DNA from: a virus
Strand: one strand, 5' to 3'
DNA length: 20,201 nt
IMG/VR virus record: IMGVR_UViG_3300046811_000142
Location: 1 to 20,201 of that record
The notes below the pieces were generated by a model. It saw only the letters and a program-made list of their open reading frames with translations, ran no database searches and was not told the DNA's origin. Positions 1,358 through 20,201 of this stretch are shown here, piece by piece. How positions within the stretch are numbered: the stretch's first letter is position 1; the number at the start of each line of letters is the position of its first letter. Position numbers and translations under genes: made by a program.

Positions 1358-1376
1358 CGGGAACGTCTGCTATAGT
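1347..1376 (+). promoter_or_regulatory. rightward promoter TTGGAC-N18-TGCTATAGT
   Basis: TTGGAC (1347-1352) is followed after 18 nt by TATAGT (1371-1376), with TGC (1368-1370) directly before it as an extended -10. The hexamer is the same as those at 96-101, 41-46 (minus) and 20193-20198 (minus). The -35 lies inside the last codons of the preceding gene. Only AGAGGT separates the -10 from the first ATG, so the mRNA would begin at or beside the start codon. Confidence 0.65.
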
Positions 1377-1382
1377 AGAGGT

Positions 1383-1562
1383 ATGATGACGGACACCGAT
1401 ACCCCCGCCCCGACCGCCCAGCAGATCGTTACCATCGCCCAGGCGGCCGTCCAGGCCGCCATGGATTCCATGACCGCCGCCGTCCGAGATGGCCGGGTCA
1501 CCACCCTGGCCGAAGCCCTCCACCACCTGGACGCCTACAACGAGGGCGTTCAATCCCTCTGA
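1383..1562 (+). CDS. small Ala-rich protein from a probably leaderless mRNA
   Basis: 59 aa starting M-M-T-D-T-D-T. After a short acidic, Thr/Pro-rich start, residues 12-52 are predicted to be helical and Ala-rich (Q-Q-I-V-T-I-A-Q-A-A-V-Q-A-A-M pattern), with no TM segment and no known motif. Two consecutive ATGs (1383, 1386) are available; the TATAGT box ends 6 nt before the first. The GAGG at 1378-1381 touches the start and is too close to act as a normal Shine-Dalgarno. It has its own promoter and is followed directly by a terminator, so it can be expressed apart from the upstream genes. Function unknown; a small anti-host or regulatory protein is possible. Confidence 0.7.
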   Translation: MMTDTDTPAPTAQQIVTIAQAAVQAAMDSMTAAVRDGRVTTLAEALHHLDAYNEGVQSL

Positions 1563-10435: not shown

Positions 10436-10861
10436 CTAGTAAGCCGTGACCGTGACGACGCCGTCGATCTGGAAGGTAGCGGTTACCGGGACCCGGTCGG
10501 CCACGGCGGCATCCACGCTGAACTCGGACAGCCAGCACTCACCGGTGTACTTGACCTTGCCGGTGGTCGTGCCCTCGGGGCCGTAGACGAACGAGGCCGT
10601 GGCCACCGCGGTCCGCAGGCCGTTGAGCACGGTGACGATGCCGACGCTGGCCGTGGTGTCCCAGTGGCCCGACACGCTAAAGGTGGTGTTGGCCAGGCTG
10701 GGGATGTACCGGGTGCCCTGGTCCCCGAACGCCGTTACCTCGGAAAGGCCGCGGGCGCCGGGCAGACCGGACACGGAGTTGAGGTAGCTCTTGACCAGCC
10801 GCAGAGTGCCTGCCGCGTCGTCTAGCTGGAAATCGATGTCCTTACCGTGAACGAACGGCAC
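10436..10861 (-). CDS. tail tube protein-like, second copy
   Basis: 141 aa from GTG 10861 with AAAGGA 7 nt upstream. Beta-rich with the layout of a phage tail tube subunit: M-P-F-V-H-G at the start, a loop G-L-S-E-V-T-A-F-G-D, strands F-S-V-S-G-H-W-D, then G-K-V-K-Y-T-G-E-C-W-L-S-E-F-S-V and final strands V-P-V-T-A-T-F-Q-I-D-G. Several of these blocks match the neighbouring 241-aa protein in order and spacing, so the two look like paralogues. Compact size and absence of an added domain make this a good candidate for the abundant tube subunit. It is followed after 3 nt by the gp10-like gene. Confidence 0.72.
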   Translation of the reverse strand: MPFVHGKDIDFQLDDAAGTLRLVKSYLNSVSGLPGARGLSEVTAFGDQGTRYIPSLANTTFSVSGHWDTTASVGIVTVLNGLRTAVATASFVYGPEGTTTGKVKYTGECWLSEFSVDAAVADRVPVTATFQIDGVVTVTAY

Positions 10862-10874
10862 GGGCCAGTCCTTT

Positions 10875-11600
10875 CTATCGGGGTGCGAGCGCCACCAGGA
10901 AGGTGGCCGAACCGGTCCCGACCACGGTGGTCACGGCCCGGACGTAGCGGCGGATCGTGGAGCCCTTGGCCAGGAAGAGCCTTTGGGCGGCCGGGGCGGT
11001 GGCCGCCGTGAAGGTGGCCCCGGACAGGTCGGCGAACGTGACGTTGTCCGCGCTGTCCTGGATCTTGACTGTAACCGAGGTGAAGCCGCTGAAGAGCGGC
11101 ATGTGGAGCACGGCCACGCCGCCGTTGGCCGACGCCGCCCCGCGGTCCACCGAGGTTCCGTTTCCGGTGGCCGTCTCGGCCGCGTACGCGTGCGCGAGGA
11201 ACCCCATGTCCACGGACTCGTCCGCGGTGGCCGAGAACGTGAAGCCGACCGCGTCGGCCACCTGGGCCGCGATCTCATGGTCGGCGGCGTCGCCCAGCAC
11301 GGTGAACGCCACCTGGCCAAGCGCCGTTCCGTCCGGGCAGACGGTGGCCAAGAACGAGTTGTCCACGGCCTTGGCCGCCTCAATCTGGCTGTGGAGGTCC
11401 TGGCCGGTGCTGTCCTGCGGGCCGCGGATGGCCAGGGAGCCATTCATCAGGCCGGGCACGAACGACGCTCCGCCGGGGTTGGCTCCCGCGGTAACCTCGG
11501 ACATGGCCCGCTGATGGCTGACCGTGTAACCCGCAACCGTAGTGGTCACGGCCTTGGTGTTGACAAAGAGGCGGGACACGTTGCCCAGGACGAAGCTCAC
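10875..11600 (-). CDS. tail tube protein-like, first copy with extra C-terminal domain
   Basis: 241 aa from GTG 11600, preceded by AGAGGT and overlapping the previous stop (GTGA). Residues 1-135 look like a tail tube fold: M-S-F-V-L-G start, M-S-E-V-T-A-G loop at 33-39, G-S-L-A-I-R-G-P-Q-D strand, G-Q-V-A-F-T-V-L-G and I-A-A-Q-V-A-D-A-V-G-F-T-F-S strands. These parallel the 141-aa neighbour. Residues 155-241 form a second beta domain (V-T-V-K-I-Q-D-S-A-D-N-V-T-F and R-R-Y-V-R-A-V-T-T-V-V) like the sandwich modules that decorate virion proteins. It may be the major tail protein with a surface domain, or a terminator-proximal or minor tube component. Confidence 0.72.
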   Translation of the reverse strand: MSFVLGNVSRLFVNTKAVTTTVAGYTVSHQRAMSEVTAGANPGGASFVPGLMNGSLAIRGPQDSTGQDLHSQIEAAKAVDNSFLATVCPDGTALGQVAFTVLGDAADHEIAAQVADAVGFTFSATADESVDMGFLAHAYAAETATGNGTSVDRGAASANGGVAVLHMPLFSGFTSVTVKIQDSADNVTFADLSGATFTAATAPAAQRLFLAKGSTIRRYVRAVTTVVGTGSATFLVALAPR

Positions 11601-12646
11601 GACATGACCTCTATTTCGATGGTGGCGCCCAGGTAGTCCACGCCGCCGTAGACCACGTCACCGATGGTCCGTGTCCGCGTCATGGTCGCGTAGGACACTC
11701 GGCCCCCGAGAGTCTGATTGGCCAGCAGCTTGTCCTTCAGCTTGTCCGCGAGGCCACCGGTGGACAACGCCTGGCGGACAGCGCGCTGGCCATCCCTGCT
11801 GTCCACGCTGGCCACCAGCAGGTGGGCCAGAAAGACGAACGTGTCCGCCCCGCGGCCCATGGACACGTCCCAGTCGATCGAGTCCATCTCGATGGCCACC
11901 GCGGGCACGTTGGCCTGTCCTGGCACCTCGGAGTAGCTGGACAGCGGGATCATGTCCCCGTCCACCGTCTGGGTGTCCATGGCCGCCCAGACGGAAGCCA
12001 GAGTGTCCGCGATGGCGTTCAGGTCGTAGGTGGCCACCAAGGCCACCATCAGGGCGTCGCGCCGGTAGGGGTCCAGCAACTCTTGCACCTTGGGGTTGGC
12101 CCGGACTCGGACGACGTAGTCCCCGAAACCGGCCACACCGAACGGGGTGTCCTTGGACTTCAGGTGGTCAGCGGCCAGCATGAGGCAGGCCTGGACAATC
12201 GAGCCAGGGACGGCCGCCCAGCCCCACTTGGCCGTGACGAGGGATGGTGGCCGGTAGGTGTCCAGGGTGGACATGTAGATCGGGTGTCCGCCGTATGTCC
12301 TCGTGATCCGTTCGTACGGATAACCAGGGACGCCGTTCAGGACACCGTTGGCCGGTTCCAATGTCCAGGTGGTTGTCCCGTCCACCCATGACACGCCGTC
12401 GATGACAAGACCCTCGGTTGTCCAGAAGTCGTCCGTGTCCAAGTAGAGCGCGGACGCGCGGACAGTCCGGGCGGTGGCCGTGTCCGTCCGGCCGAACTGG
12501 CGGCCGGTGTACTGATTGATCATGTCCGAGGCGGACGCCAGCGCGGTGGCCACGTCGTCGTCCAGGGTGGTGTTGCTGTCCGGGATGGCCGCCCGGCGCT
12601 TCACGTCGGCGGCGTCCGCGTACGGGCCGCCCAGGGGCGCGGTCAT
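11597..12646 (-). CDS. head-tail connector fused to tail-terminator-like domain
   Basis: 349 aa with no internal stop. Residues 1-195 fit a gp6-like head-tail connector: D-A-A-D-V-K-R-R-A-A-I-P-D, L-D-D-D-V-A-T-A-L-A-S-A-S-D-M-I-N-Q-Y-T-G-R-Q-F, and a final V-Q-E-L-L-D-P-Y-R-R that normally ends such proteins. Residues 200-349 begin M-V-A-L-V-A-T-Y-D-L-N-A-I-A-D-T-L and have the size and mixed alpha/beta pattern of a tail terminator. The Met at 200 (ATG 12049) has no Shine-Dalgarno, so independent initiation looks unlikely. ATG 12646 overlaps the glycosyltransferase stop (ATGA), and the stop overlaps the next GTG. No separate head-closure gene is visible. The domain assignment is by pattern, not search. 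Confidence 0.7.
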   Translation of the reverse strand: MTAPLGGPYADAADVKRRAAIPDSNTTLDDDVATALASASDMINQYTGRQFGRTDTATARTVRASALYLDTDDFWTTEGLVIDGVSWVDGTTTWTLEPANGVLNGVPGYPYERITRTYGGHPIYMSTLDTYRPPSLVTAKWGWAAVPGSIVQACLMLAADHLKSKDTPFGVAGFGDYVVRVRANPKVQELLDPYRRDALMVALVATYDLNAIADTLASVWAAMDTQTVDGDMIPLSSYSEVPGQANVPAVAIEMDSIDWDVSMGRGADTFVFLAHLLVASVDSRDGQRAVRQALSTGGLADKLKDKLLANQTLGGRVSYATMTRTRTIGDVVYGGVDYLGATIEIEVMS

Positions 12647-13464
12647 GCGTTCACCTTGTCCATGTCCGGGGCGGCCAGGTGTCGCGGCTGGACACCGAGG
12701 GGCGACGCGGTGGCCACGATCCGTTCGGCCCGGTAGCTGGCCTCGTCCAGGAAGATGCCGCCTTTGTGGTGGCTGGTCTTGACCGATGTGTCCACGCCGA
12801 TCGGAACGCCCGCGTTGGCCAGCCGGGCGCAGAACGATAGGTCCTCGGAGAACTCGCGGTCCGTGCCGTCCGGGTTGCCCGCGCGGACCAGCATGGGCCG
12901 GAAGGGGTTTGGGCCGAGCCGGTTCAGGGCGTCCCGGTGCATGATCATGCACGCGGCACCGGTGCCGTCTGCGTACTGGAACCGGTCCGGGAGGTAGTCC
13001 ATGACCGGCAGGAAGCCCTGTTCCCCGGTCTCTTGAATCTTGACGTACCGGTAGATGGTCGGCACGGTGTGGAAGCGCTTGGTGTGGAGCGGATTCTCTT
13101 CGGCCCGGGGGTCCAGTTTCTGGGCAAAGCAGAGGCCGCCGACAACCGGGCAGTCATTGGCCTCGGCGGCCGAGATTAGGCGGTCGATTGTGTCCGGCTC
13201 GAACCCCATGTCCGTGTCCACCATGAACAGCCACTCGGCCCGTCCGGCCAGGAAGCGTTCCACGATGGTCGAGCGGGCCGAGGCGACGCCCATGGTCCCG
13301 GCGTTGACGCGCAGATACTGGCCGCCCTCGCGCACGATGCGTGGCTCGGCGGCGGCCTGGTCCCGGAGCATGGTGTCCGTCCAGGACAGGCCGAACGAGG
13401 CCGACCACGTTCCGCCGTCCACGAACGAGGGGACCACCATGCCAGCGATTGCGTACTCCGTCAT
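12643..13464 (-). CDS. GT-A family glycosyltransferase (GT2-like)
   Basis: 273 aa. A Rossmann-like start (G-M-V-V-P-S-F) is followed by A-E-W-L-F-M-V-D-T-D-M-G-F with the metal-binding D-x-D at 83-85. F-S-E-D-L-S-F-C (E207-D208) is the acidic motif of GT-A enzymes, and S-H-H-K (232-233) supplies a C-terminal His metal ligand. All key residues are present, so the enzyme is probably active and would move a sugar from a nucleotide donor to a protein or glycan in the cytoplasm. There are no TM segments. Lying between capsid and connector genes, it is co-expressed with virion proteins and may glycosylate the capsid or tail. ATG 13464 has GGAG 9 nt upstream; a TTG at 13524 would extend it but lies inside a hairpin. 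Confidence 0.85.
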   Translation of the reverse strand: MTEYAIAGMVVPSFVDGGTWSASFGLSWTDTMLRDQAAAEPRIVREGGQYLRVNAGTMGVASARSTIVERFLAGRAEWLFMVDTDMGFEPDTIDRLISAAEANDCPVVGGLCFAQKLDPRAEENPLHTKRFHTVPTIYRYVKIQETGEQGFLPVMDYLPDRFQYADGTGAACMIMHRDALNRLGPNPFRPMLVRAGNPDGTDREFSEDLSFCARLANAGVPIGVDTSVKTSHHKGGIFLDEASYRAERIVATASPLGVQPRHLAAPDMDKVNA

Positions 13465-13502
13465 CTCGGTCAGCTCCAGTCGGCAGGGCCAGCAGGGTTG
13501 AG

Positions 13503-13539
13503 CCGGGCCGCCGCCACCCTGCAAGGAACGGCGGCCCGG
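13503..13539 (-). terminator. stem-loop between the 118-aa gene and the glycosyltransferase
   Basis: CCGGGCCGCCG (13503-13513) is perfectly complementary to CGGCGGCCCGG (13529-13539), an 11-bp GC-only stem with a 15-nt loop. It begins 4 nt past the stop at 13544. No T-run follows on the minus strand, so partial termination, transcript processing or 3' end protection are all possible. Confidence 0.6.
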
Positions 13540-13543
13540 TGCA

Positions 13544-13900
13544 TTACTTGGTGCCGGTCGTCCGGGAGCGGGTGGTCGCCTTGTCGGCCTTGGCCGGTTC
13601 CGGCTGGACCGCGTCGGCGTCCTCGGTCCGGTCCGCGGCCGGAGTGTCCTCGACCGTGTAGGTCTGGACCTCGGACGGCGCCGTGGCCACTTCGCCCGGC
13701 GCGGGCCGGTTGTCCATGTCCTCGGCGGTCGGGCCGTCGAGTGTGACGTGCTCGCCGGTGTAGCGGTCGACCGGGCCGAGCACGTCAGTGATCAGGACTT
13801 CGCGGCCGTCCTTGGTGGTGACCAGCCGTCCCGCGTGCTGCTGGATCGGCTGCTTGTCGTCGTAGTCCGGGTCCCCGGACTTTGCCTTTTCGTAGACCAT
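13544..13900 (-). CDS. acidic 118-aa protein downstream of the capsid gene
   Basis: 118 aa. Residues 1-55 are a mixed, probably folded part (K-D-G-R-E-V-L-I-T-D-V-L-G-P-V-D-R-Y-T-G). The rest is acidic and rich in Pro, Ala, Thr and Glu (P-A-P-G-E-V-A-T-A-P-S-E-V and E-D-T-P-A-A-D), ending in a basic T-R-S-R-T-T-G-T-K tail; it is probably disordered. The Shine-Dalgarno AAAGGGG is strong and 6 nt from the ATG. The gene stands alone between two perfect hairpins. Being next to the capsid gene suggests a minor head, decoration or neck protein, but no family is recognised. Confidence 0.7.
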   Translation of the reverse strand: MVYEKAKSGDPDYDDKQPIQQHAGRLVTTKDGREVLITDVLGPVDRYTGEHVTLDGPTAEDMDNRPAPGEVATAPSEVQTYTVEDTPAADRTEDADAVQPEPAKADKATTRSRTTGTK

Positions 13901-13929: not shown

Positions 13930-13976
13930 CACCGGCCGGACGCGCGGGAGCGGGGGCACTCGGCGTCCGGCCGGTG
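13930..13976 (-). terminator. stem-loop directly after the major capsid gene
   Basis: CACCGGCCGGACGC (13930-13943) pairs perfectly with GCGTCCGGCCGGTG (13963-13976): 14 bp, 19-nt loop, starting 8 nt past the capsid stop. No T-run follows on the minus strand. A hairpin here could give partial termination or protect the 3' end of an abundant capsid mRNA, separating capsid expression from downstream genes. Confidence 0.7.
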
Positions 13977-16715: not shown

Positions 16716-18292
16716 CCGGGGGTGCCTTCCTCTTGCAGGGCCGGGTCCGCATTGGGGTCGGCGGCCGGGTCGGCCAGGGGGTCCACGGCCGGTTCCGGCT
16801 CGGGGAACTCCACCAGGGTTAGGTCCAGGGCATCCGCCGCCGCCACAGCGCTGTCCGGCTCGGCGCCACCGGCAATCAGCTGAACGGCGTCGGTCACCTT
16901 GGCCGTGAACTCGGCCGCGGGATCGGGGCCGGTGTCCTGCTGCTGGGCGCCGGGCGGCTGGAGCTGGACGGACATCAGGCCGGAGTGGACCAGAAGGGAC
17001 AGATCCTCGGCCAGGACGGCGGCCTGCGCGCTCTCCGGCGTCCAGCCGGACGCCACGGCGGCGTTGATGGTGGCCATCGTGGTGGACAGGACTTGGGCGA
17101 TGTCCTTGATGTCCTCGCGCAGGAAGGCCACGTCCGAGATGTCGTACCAAAGATCGGCCGCGCCGCCGGGCGGCAGGACCATCAGGGGCTCGATGGCCAG
17201 GGCAAACGACTTCCACATCGGCCGCGCCCAGCTGTCCCCGAACGCCCTACGAGCCTGGGCATAGTTGGAGTAGGTGGCAGCTGACAGGCCCTCGGACAGG
17301 CCGACGATGATGGGCGGCACGCGGCCCGCGGCGCACATCCGGGTCTCTCCGGCGCCCTGGGTATTGCGGAAATCCAGCTGGTTCATGTCGGCGCCGACCA
17401 CGGTTACATCGGCGCCGCCGCCGACGTACATGGTTTCGTAGGCATTTTCCACGCCCCGGCTGGCGGCCTTACTAGCCGACACAAACTTATTGAACTGATC
17501 AACAGTGACGCCCTCTTTAACGGACACCACCATGTTCGGGGTGGCCGCATTCTCGAAGAACTTCAGCTTGTGATCGGTGGCGGCCTGGTCCGCTTGCTTT
17601 TCCCGGATCACCGGAGTCAGCCAGGACATGCCGCGAAACTGGGCGTCCGGGTCAGGAATAGGGGACCACCAGGCGGCGTACCCCTCCGGGTCAACACCGG
17701 GCGGCGGATTGACCGGATAGAGAGCAGTAATCCCGCCGGACCGGGGGCCGCCGACCGTGTAGCGGATGCCGATAACGTCGGTCTCCAGGGCCACGTCCGG
17801 TGGGGCGGTCAGGATGAACTCACACCAGTCCGGCCGTAAGCGCTTGAGCTTCCCGTCCAGCCGGACACAGAAGAACGTGCCCGCGGCCGATGTGTCCTGC
17901 TCCGCGCGCATCAGCAGCGGTTGAGTGATCAGGGTGGTGTCAGCCGAGACGAACAGGTCGTTGCCGCCGCCGGACGTGCCGCGCCGCCGCCACTTGAACG
18001 TGATGTCCGTGAAGAGCATGGCGCGGGCCAAGCTGATGGCGAACACCACGCCATTGGACTTGTAAGCGCCCTGAACGTAGCCGAGGAACGAGTCAATGAC
18101 CGGCTCGGCCTTCTGGCCGGGAATCGAGGTCGTGTAGCTCGGCTGATAGATCTGGTTCTGGTAGAGGAACCAGGAATCCACGAACCCCTGCCAGTCCGGG
18201 CCGTAGGCGCGCGCAATCTCCTGCCGCGGAGGGTCCGGGTTCCAGCGGACTATCTCACGGCCGAGCCGGGCGAGTTCCGAACGGGCGCTCAC
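16712..18292 (-). CDS. portal protein
   Basis: 526 aa from GTG 18292, which overlaps the terminase stop (GTGA). Size and position between terminase and protease are those of HK97-type portals, the dodecameric ring at the capsid vertex through which DNA passes. Typical portal phrases are F-R-G-M-S-W-L-T-P-V-I-R-E and D-H-K-L-K-F-F-E-N-A-A-T-P-N-M-V-V, then a stem and tunnel helix region near R-V-P-P-I-I-V-G-L-S-E-G, and I-S-D-V-A-F-L-R-E-D-I-K-D. The last 60 residues are acidic with an Asp-Pro-Ala-like repeat (D-P-L-A-D-P-A-A-D-P-N-A-D-P), likely flexible. The frame is open 39 codons further upstream but that overlaps the terminase. Confidence 0.92.
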   Translation of the reverse strand: MSARSELARLGREIVRWNPDPPRQEIARAYGPDWQGFVDSWFLYQNQIYQPSYTTSIPGQKAEPVIDSFLGYVQGAYKSNGVVFAISLARAMLFTDITFKWRRRGTSGGGNDLFVSADTTLITQPLLMRAEQDTSAAGTFFCVRLDGKLKRLRPDWCEFILTAPPDVALETDVIGIRYTVGGPRSGGITALYPVNPPPGVDPEGYAAWWSPIPDPDAQFRGMSWLTPVIREKQADQAATDHKLKFFENAATPNMVVSVKEGVTVDQFNKFVSASKAASRGVENAYETMYVGGGADVTVVGADMNQLDFRNTQGAGETRMCAAGRVPPIIVGLSEGLSAATYSNYAQARRAFGDSWARPMWKSFALAIEPLMVLPPGGAADLWYDISDVAFLREDIKDIAQVLSTTMATINAAVASGWTPESAQAAVLAEDLSLLVHSGLMSVQLQPPGAQQQDTGPDPAAEFTAKVTDAVQLIAGGAEPDSAVAAADALDLTLVEFPEPEPAVDPLADPAADPNADPALQEEGTPG

Positions 18293-19812
18293 GCGAACAC
18301 CACCCACGGCATGGCCTCTTCCTCCGAGCCTTTGGTAAGCAGGCCCCAGAGGGCATGAGTTGCCGAAACCAGGGACGTGATGTCGGTGGCCGCCGTCCGC
18401 CGATCCCATGCCGTGCCACCGTCGCCCACGGTGCGGGTTCCGGCTCCACGTAGGGCCAGGGACAGTTCAGGCTGGCCGACATGGGCCACGATGCGTTCCC
18501 CCGGGTTTTCGCTGGTGGCCGCATCATAGATCATGCCAAACGCGGCGGCTACGTCCCGGCCGGTCATCGACACGAACTCCACCCCGCTGGCGGCCACATC
18601 AGCCGCGATAGAACCGGCCGGGCCGCCTGTGTCCACGACCACCGCACACGGCTTCCACTTCCCGGCCAGGATGGCTAGGGCCTGTGGAACCCAGGCCGAG
18701 CCGGGGCCGGACAGCAGCACCTCGACCACAAGGACGCCACCGGTCGTCCGGTAGGCGGCCGAGATCGTGGATCGCACCGGTCCGGCCGCCCGCGGGGACA
18801 CGTCCACGGCCAGGGCTGGCTGGCCAGCCATCTCGGCCGCCGCTACGGGGTCCATCTCCAGGCGTTCCCACTGGGCCTTGGTGATCACGGTGTATCCGGC
18901 AGAGAGGTCCGGCGGCCAGGCGCCCAGGCGCTCCCGCGCGAAACCGGCCGGGTCCATGGTGGCCCGCTCCCGGTCGATCGCCTCGTCGCTGATTCGGTGC
19001 GGGTAGGCCGGGTTCGCGGACGCACGGAGTGCCAGGTCGTCCAGGATGCAGCCGTCCTCGGTTGGCCGGTGGGTGCACCGGCCAGACCGGCAGGGGCCGA
19101 TCTGGTCCAGCGTGAAGTCGGCGCCGTAATCGATGTAGGTCATGCCCGGCGTCCCGGCCAGGGCGGCATTACGCGCCCGGAACAGGGCCTCACCGGTGCC
19201 GGGGTCGAGCGGGGGCGAGGACATCAGCCAGAGTTGCGGGTTGGGCCGGGCAGACAGTGCCGGAAGGGTCGCGTCCACCTGGGCGGCCACCAGTGCATAG
19301 GCCTCGTTCCAGAGCAGCTTGTCAAAAGAGAATCCGCGACCGGCTCCCTTGGACCGCGCCAGGAAGCGCATCCGGTTGCCGTTCAGTAGCTCGATCGCCT
19401 CTTCACCGTTGGCCTGGGCGATGCGCTTCACCTGGCGCCTGAGGTCGTCGGTATTGGTGATCAGGGCCACCAGGCGGCGGAAAGCCTCCATGGCCGTCTT
19501 GTATTCGTGTGCCGAGTGGCCGATCAGGCGCTCACCGGTGAGGAAGAGCCAGCCGAGACCTAGGGCCTCGGCAATGCCGTCTTTGCCGTTCTGGCGGGGC
19601 ACGATCTCAGTGACCTGGAAGCTGGCCCATTTGCCGTCCTCGCGCTCGCCCAGACCAATCGTCATGTCACGGCCCTGCCACGGGTCCAGGATCAGCCCGG
19701 CGCTGGCGGCCAGCTCGATAAACTCCGGGCCGCTGGAGTAGGGCGCGGGCGGGTAGTGGCAGATCCTGGGCAGGACGAGGCCGCTTGCCGTGGTCTCCAG
19801 TAGGTCAGACAC
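18289..19812 (-). CDS. terminase large subunit
   Basis: 507 aa from GTG 19812. ATPase domain: V-P-R-Q-N-G-K-D (72-77 is the PRQNGK form of Walker A), Walker B at L-L-W-N-E-A-Y (168-170), and the coupling motif L-M-S-S-P-P at 196-201. Nuclease domain: candidate metal-binding acids are D337 in A-L-A-V-D-V-S, D394 in V-V-V-D-T-G-G and D477 in A-A-T-D-I-T. The Walker B has Asn where Asp is usual. A Cys-rich loop (C241, C246, C255) lies between the domains. It cuts concatemeric DNA and pumps it into the prohead at the portal. No small subunit gene is seen in the window; it may lie to the right. The Shine-Dalgarno GGGGGTGA is part of a hairpin upstream. Confidence 0.93.
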   Translation of the reverse strand: MSDLLETTASGLVLPRICHYPPAPYSSGPEFIELAASAGLILDPWQGRDMTIGLGEREDGKWASFQVTEIVPRQNGKDGIAEALGLGWLFLTGERLIGHSAHEYKTAMEAFRRLVALITNTDDLRRQVKRIAQANGEEAIELLNGNRMRFLARSKGAGRGFSFDKLLWNEAYALVAAQVDATLPALSARPNPQLWLMSSPPLDPGTGEALFRARNAALAGTPGMTYIDYGADFTLDQIGPCRSGRCTHRPTEDGCILDDLALRASANPAYPHRISDEAIDRERATMDPAGFARERLGAWPPDLSAGYTVITKAQWERLEMDPVAAAEMAGQPALAVDVSPRAAGPVRSTISAAYRTTGGVLVVEVLLSGPGSAWVPQALAILAGKWKPCAVVVDTGGPAGSIAADVAASGVEFVSMTGRDVAAAFGMIYDAATSENPGERIVAHVGQPELSLALRGAGTRTVGDGGTAWDRRTAATDITSLVSATHALWGLLTKGSEEEAMPWVVFA

Positions 19813-19815
19813 GAA

Positions 19816-19850
19816 TCACCCCCGGCACCATCGTACGGTGCCGGGGGTGA
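19816..19850 (-). terminator. stem-loop before the terminase gene, includes its Shine-Dalgarno
   Basis: TCACCCCCGGCACC (19816-19829 on plus) pairs perfectly with GGTGCCGGGGGTGA (19837-19850), a 14-bp stem with a 7-nt loop. On the minus-strand mRNA the 3' arm contains GGGGGUGA and ends 3 nt before the GTG start of terminase, so the only visible Shine-Dalgarno is inside the stem. There is no T-run after it. It could be a leaky terminator after the KOW gene, a translation-blocking hairpin, or both. Confidence 0.7.
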
Positions 19851-19862
19851 GGTTGATCAGGA

Positions 19863-20186
19863 TCAGGCGGGCAGGTCCTCGCCGGACTGGCGGGCGTCCT
19901 GGCCCCAGTCGATCCGGCCGACGCGGTTGGCGAACCCGGGATACCGGGAGTCGAGCGCGTGGACCAGGTCCTGGATCGTGTTGTGGCTGGCCACGACCTG
20001 GGCGAGTTCGCCCTGGGTGATGGTGGCCTCGTCCGGCGCCTTGATGTTGGTCCGCTTCTGGGTGATGAGTTCGCCGTCCTTCATCTCCAGGACCACGGTG
20101 TCGGCGTTGGTCAGCTTGACCTCGCCCTCGTCGCCGGACCGCTTGCCTCGCTTGATGGTTACGGTGTCGCCCGCCTGAATACTCAT
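19863..20186 (-). CDS. KOW-domain small protein, first gene of the leftward unit
   Basis: 107 aa. Residues 4-48 form a KOW-type SH3 barrel: A-G-D-T-V-T-I-K-R-G-K-R-S-G-D-E-G-E-V, then T-V-V-L-E-M-K-D-G and a final strand. The G-D-x-V-x-I-x-x-G-x(4)-G-x-V spacing is that of NusG and ribosomal protein L24 KOW motifs, which bind RNA or protein. Residues 55-80 are a helix (I-T-Q-G-E-L-A-Q-V-V-A-S-H) and the tail is acidic. It starts at an ATG 6 nt from a TATAGT box, so a leaderless mRNA is likely. Being the first late gene before a hairpin, it may act on transcription or RNA; this is inference. A small packaging role is another option. Confidence 0.72.
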   Translation of the reverse strand: MSIQAGDTVTIKRGKRSGDEGEVKLTNADTVVLEMKDGELITQKRTNIKAPDEATITQGELAQVVASHNTIQDLVHALDSRYPGFANRVGRIDWGQDARQSGEDLPA

Positions 20187-20192
20187 GCCCCT

Positions 20193-20201
20193 ACTATAGC
20201 A
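20193..20201 (-). promoter_or_regulatory. leftward promoter, extended -10 TGCTATAGT
   Basis: On the minus strand TGC-TATAGT (20201-20193) is an extended -10 identical in nine bases to that at 1368-1376. AGGGGC separates it from ATG 20186. The -35 would be outside the window. It is the only promoter seen upstream of the late genes, so it may drive the entire structural operon. Confidence 0.65.

Follow-up and report, generated by a model that had tools for sequence, protein, structure and literature searches.

The locus and its late genes

The window analysed here is the complete record of an uncultured virus, IMGVR_UViG_3300046811_000142, 20,201 bases in length, and its late genes lie on the minus strand in the order KOW gene, terminase large subunit (TerL), portal, protease, capsid and tail; the features of interest are collected in Table 1. 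The phage is probably actinobacterial, as far as sequence comparison can indicate: among named phages, those of actinobacteria have the closest TerL proteins (about 35% identity), and the prophage relatives from the TerL scan reside in actinobacterial genomes. A model of the element described below was searched against 396 genomes from the phylum of Saccharopolyspora soli and gave one weak match only (E 2e-5), a similar-looking hairpin located 5' of an unrelated bacterial gene and without the TANNNT motif.

Table 1. Positions of the principal features in the 20,201-base window.
Feature	Position	Strand	Remarks
Terminase large subunit (TerL)	18289..19812	-	phrog_9, E 3e-43; GTG start at 19812
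Predicted full leader of promoter-started mRNA, GGGGGTGATTC	19813..19823	-	extended Shine-Dalgarno; predicted transcription start 19823
14-bp hairpin 5' of TerL	19816..19850	-	exact pairing; inner stem covaries among relatives
TACGAT, -10-like hexamer (TANNNT) in hairpin loop	19830..19835	-	conserved in relatives
KOW-domain protein, 107 aa	19863..20186	-	cargo, located between the small terminase gene and TerL
TGCTATAGT, extended -10-type element	20193..20201	-	6 nt before KOW ATG; leaderless-type putative promoter
Hairpin, 14 bp exact	13930..13976	-	about 10 nt past capsid stop; terminator- or stabiliser-like, no T run
Hairpin, 11 bp exact	13503..13539	-	just past stop codon at 13544

An earlier note on this DNA took the KOW protein to be the first product of the late operon, which is probably incorrect; in the relatives a small terminase gene lies just 5' of the KOW gene, and the window stops at 20201, just where the putative KOW promoter element lies. 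KOW is one of several cargo genes that are found between the terminase subunits. Elements of the TGCTATAGT type also precede the KOW gene at loci L002, L004, L022, L023, L024, L025 and L088, and in most members TATAGT is followed by 6-7 nt and the start codon; in L018 and L020 the promoter element is farther upstream and there is a leader.

Elsewhere in the window, a second leaderless-type promoter (TGCTATAGT, 6 nt and ATG; 1368-1385, plus strand) precedes a small gene that ends at 1562 on the same strand, and a perfect 18-bp palindrome without a loop lies between convergent ORF ends at 1568-1603, where it has the look of a bidirectional terminator. Two adjacent major-tail-protein genes (10436-10861 and 10875-11600, minus strand) match overlapping PHROG tail families and possibly reflect duplication of a tail-tube gene, while a glycosyltransferase-like gene (12643-13524, minus strand) is found in the late operon directly past the capsid region.

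A conserved hairpin buries the TerL Shine-Dalgarno sequence

The perfect 14-bp hairpin with the TerL Shine-Dalgarno sequence in its 3' arm, to which the earlier note had drawn attention, is exact. Its 5' arm (19850-19837) is TCACCCCCGGCACC, its loop (19836-19830) is GTACGAT and its 3' arm (19829-19816), which holds the Shine-Dalgarno sequence, is GGTGCCGGGGGTGA. Perfect 14-bp repeats with loops of 3-19 occur five times across the window, overlapping repeats being counted, and not once in 100 dinucleotide shuffles. A scan for TerL relatives recovered 77 viral and 8 bacterial loci, to which L088 was added by a pattern scan. The hairpin is found directly 5' of the TerL start at L002, L003, L004, L005, L008, L010, L013, L018-L025 and L088, and further at L141 and, in deviant form, L017; in all, a hairpin occupies this place in no fewer than 17 contigs of related uncultured phages.

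In the aligned relatives the stem ends at the Shine-Dalgarno sequence, always 3 nt 5' of the start codon. The Shine-Dalgarno sequence GGGGGTGA makes up the 3' side of the outer stem, which for this reason hardly varies. The inner six pairs vary in sequence, and 82 of 90 cells are paired; shuffles of whole arms between the sequences gave 53 +/- 4.3, with 0/20000 as high. The covariation score of the ungapped subset is 0.248 against 0.076, and drops to 0.04 or less once the arms are slid by 1-3 columns. Since the inner pairs change yet stay paired, the constraint is on pairing and not on sequence, and the hairpin is a real and conserved structure. A palindromic protein-binding site can be dismissed, since the inner arms vary freely while pairing is kept, and a packaging (cos/pac) site is unlikely, given that the element sits between the terminase genes and is absent where these overlap. 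A search with Rfam covariance models assigned the hairpin to no family and returned one chance match elsewhere (E 0.91).

Pairing of the extended Shine-Dalgarno sequence, GGGGGTGATYC, to the end of the 16S rRNA amounts to -18 to -21 kcal/mol across the aligned loci (-17.9 kcal/mol for the duplex at GGGGGTGATTC), and is outweighed by folding of the hairpin at -23 to -35 kcal/mol. Promoter-started RNA has only a modest gain in predicted accessibility of the Shine-Dalgarno sequence, since sequence farther downstream pairs too, and in L005 there is no gain (0.13 to 0.01).

The hairpin is restricted to terminase loci with cargo

Two scans of 2.9 million viral contigs with hairpin patterns returned almost only TerL starts, with one element per contig; a relaxed pattern gave two other matches, L099 and L100, of which L099 was rejected as an AT-rich chance match. 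The element is confined to loci at which the small terminase gene is set apart from TerL by cargo. Wherever a small terminase gene can be placed at a hairpin locus, 268-1621 nt separate the two genes, and at about 50 loci where the terminase genes overlap or abut there is no hairpin. Of the other loci whose terminase genes are separated, L006, L007 and L012 have putative leaderless promoters instead of the hairpin, and L011 has neither, a short ORF filling the gap between its terminase genes. The coupled cases (L011, L014 and L015) and the leaderless cases described below are nested within the hairpin clade of the tree; the state has therefore changed more than once and the association does not reduce to one split, the events being few.

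Two contigs carry additional copies of related sequence. In L141 (701-820) there is a second, decayed terminase hairpin farther upstream, lacking hexamer and start codon and separated from the intact copy by cargo genes, and in L005 (3331-3365) a T-run terminator follows another cargo gene, with flank and stem resembling those of the TerL hairpin of the same contig. These sequences hint that cargo may arrive together with copies of the element.

A candidate promoter in the hairpin loop

The hexamer TACGAT in the loop was overlooked in the earlier note. It is of the actinobacterial -10 hexamer type, TANNNT, and constitutes a putative promoter. TANNNT occupies the loop in 15 of 15 aligned sequences and in L088, while nearby loop and arm bases vary; in the aligned set T1, A2 and T6 are invariant and C is usual at position 3. 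The hexamer ends exactly 6 nt before the Shine-Dalgarno sequence in 11 of the 15 (as in the window) and 7-8 nt before it in the rest, a fixed distance that is partly a product of hairpin symmetry. L141 has a shorter 5' side and the hexamer CATACT, in which ANNNT and the distance of 6 are kept, and the deviant hairpin of L017 has its hexamer in the arm, at a distance of 10 nt from the Shine-Dalgarno sequence. Around the loop hexamer the aligned relatives have no conserved -35 element or extended -10; a recurrent CTGATC was rejected as a -35, being usually the upstream stop codon and variable in its distance.

The main promoter motif of M. smegmatis is ANNNT at -13 to -6, present in 79% of promoters; no -35 consensus emerged there, and leaderless transcripts make up 24% (PMC6448022). 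Leaderless actinobacterial promoters have TANNNT and then about 6-7 nt to the start, an arrangement matched exactly by most of the KOW genes and by TerL at L006, L007 and L012, which have no hairpin and in which TACNAT is followed by 6 nt and the TerL start codon. These three would represent the same promoter geometry in leaderless form, to which the TerL element adds a Shine-Dalgarno leader and a hairpin.

We also considered whether the hairpin serves chiefly to terminate transcripts of the upstream cargo, the terminase promoter lying inside it and the Shine-Dalgarno sequence being incidental to the stem. L012 has a classical T-run terminator at the equivalent point, just 5' of its putative leaderless TerL promoter and in place of the hairpin, and the T-run terminator behind an upstream cargo gene in L005 is so similar in flank and stem that the elements may share an origin. 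However, a T run after the stem is absent from the window, where the stem is followed by TTCGTG, and from the aligned relatives; the terminator scan did not list the hairpin, and the stem's unvarying end at the Shine-Dalgarno sequence also argues against such a role, which we regard as unlikely.

The KOW protein and the downstream hairpins

The two further perfect hairpins reported within the operon are likewise present, and grouping all three as one family was rejected, since the two downstream hairpins share neither sequence, loop nor type of position with the terminase one. For the post-capsid hairpin most capsid relatives have a counterpart, placed 6-20 nt past the stop codon and with unrelated arms; 5% of random windows score equally high. 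Both downstream hairpins are probably terminator-like or RNA-stabilising structures, separate from the terminase element. At L118, L124, L125, L129 and L130, post-capsid hairpins have the loop GGCCGCACGGATG, or nearly so, on differing stems, and this loop is possibly recognised by something.

The KOW protein, described in the earlier note as NusG/L24-like, has a KOW fold of the SPT5/L24 kind. Pfam KOW scores 19 bits against the 107-aa ORF, below the cut-off of 22.3, while a profile of the KOW family matches SPT5 and uL24 KOW domains (E 8e-5 to 3e-4). The structure model, which matches SPT5 KOW domains, starts at its N-terminus with a KOW barrel, followed by no more than short helices, with pLDDT of 83-93 in 10-residue blocks over residues 1-50 and an overall mean of 79.7. 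The NusG N-terminal (NGN) domain, which binds RNA polymerase in NusG, Spt5 and RfaH, is absent from the modelled protein, and there is no full-length uL24 match, bacterial uL24 aligning only over profile positions 1-40 or so and no Pfam uL24 family being matched. Searches for relatives of the protein by tblastn, with three family members against 50,697 phage records, and by a scan of viral contigs with the single KOW protein, found none.

The KOW gene adjoins the terminase hairpin in the window and at 11 other loci, and six contigs (L003, L005, L008, L010, L013 and L017) have the hairpin with no detectable KOW gene nearby. KOW is therefore not needed to pass or control the hairpins. The suggestion that it is a small processive antiterminator or RNA switch, carrying polymerase or ribosomes through the late-operon hairpins, accords with a fold seen in SPT5/NusG and uL24, but is left unsupported by the missing NGN domain, by the persistence of hairpins in phages without KOW and by the dissimilarity of the downstream hairpins to the terminase one; we judge it highly improbable. 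The protein may bind RNA as such. A related proposal makes the hairpin a translational operator, whose loop and stem are bound by KOW or another phage protein that represses or releases TerL, so that TANNNT would be a feature of loop recognition and not a promoter. A conserved loop atop a variable stem does resemble an RNA operator, and KOW domains, often RNA-binding, are encoded next to so many of these hairpins; yet the KOW-less contigs speak against KOW in this role, the hexamer keeps a promoter-like distance to the start codon in leaderless relatives that have no hairpin, and invariance is limited to three positions in a -10-like pattern. An operator seems to us quite unlikely.

Discussion

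We propose that positions 19850-19812 are likely to constitute an insulated TerL promoter, in which the hairpin hides the Shine-Dalgarno sequence in read-through RNA and the promoter in the loop frees it. Upstream transcription would come from the KOW gene, which has a strong-looking promoter of its own, and from the small terminase gene. In the resulting read-through RNA the full hairpin would fold and bury the Shine-Dalgarno sequence, and no TerL would be made; some of these transcripts may terminate at the hairpin, adding to the insulation. We infer that the hexamer is a working promoter, at which polymerase would start on the first G of GGGGGTGA or on a neighbouring base. With its predicted start at the Shine-Dalgarno sequence, own-promoter RNA would therefore be without the 5' arm, and its Shine-Dalgarno sequence would be free at the extreme 5' end and translated. 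Transcription leaking in from the preceding gene would probably not turn TerL on; only the TerL promoter would. The fallback explanation in the earlier note, that the hairpin just limits terminase synthesis, was on the right track; it now has comparative support, and the promoter in the loop is added to it.

The arrangement has a precedent in bacteriophage T4, where long read-through transcripts of gene e (lysozyme), soc, 49 and I-TevI bury the Shine-Dalgarno sequence in a hairpin, and transcripts from the genes' own promoters are without its 5' arm (PMC3014915). Gene e and the TerL element both bury the Shine-Dalgarno sequence in a stable and conserved read-through hairpin; upstream genes are co-directional here too (KOW, and the small terminase gene in relatives), and the putative promoter, TANNNT with the right spacing, would drop the 5' arm. 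However, the T4 promoters are phage late promoters recognised by gp55, while the TerL element has a housekeeping-like actinobacterial -10 placed inside the loop itself, its predicted leader is merely an 11-nt Shine-Dalgarno sequence, the gene is TerL, and host group and phage lineage are unrelated to T4. Such a layout at this terminase gene has apparently not been reported before.

IS10 and IS50 offer another parallel: RNA reading into these elements folds and hides the transposase start, the transposase promoter lies inside, and the fold is formed from the element's end repeats. These and the TerL element share protection from external promoters, but here the gene is one for phage packaging. 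In Cluster K mycobacteriophages, SAS and ESAS combine a Shine-Dalgarno-like sequence with an inverted repeat just 5' of start codons; the SAS is a fixed 13-bp sequence, GGGATAGGAGCCC, in many copies per genome, and the repeats are imperfect, 17 bp long and of shared consensus (PMC3203893). Both systems place a repeat and a Shine-Dalgarno sequence before actinophage start codons, but the leader here is GGGGGTGATTC and not GGGATAGGAGCCC, and there is one full element per contig with a covarying stem and TANNNT in its loop.

This study adds, from actinobacterial phages, a testable and covariation-backed example of a layout of gene control for which T4 is otherwise the documented case. The hairpin could be read correctly only with its relatives in view, comparison having removed the link between KOW and hairpin that the window alone suggested. 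As a short and self-contained candidate for an insulated promoter, the element could be put to the test in laboratory actinobacteria. More tentatively, and with rather less confidence than we place in the mechanism itself, we suggest that it is a promoter-insulator cassette of about 45 nt (hairpin, -10 in the loop, start at the Shine-Dalgarno sequence), specific to a clade of uncultured actinophages, which may keep TerL independent of accessory genes between the terminase genes, so that cargo could come and go without upsetting packaging, with translational coupling serving instead where there is no cargo. This may explain why the space between the terminase subunit genes can accommodate accessory genes at all.
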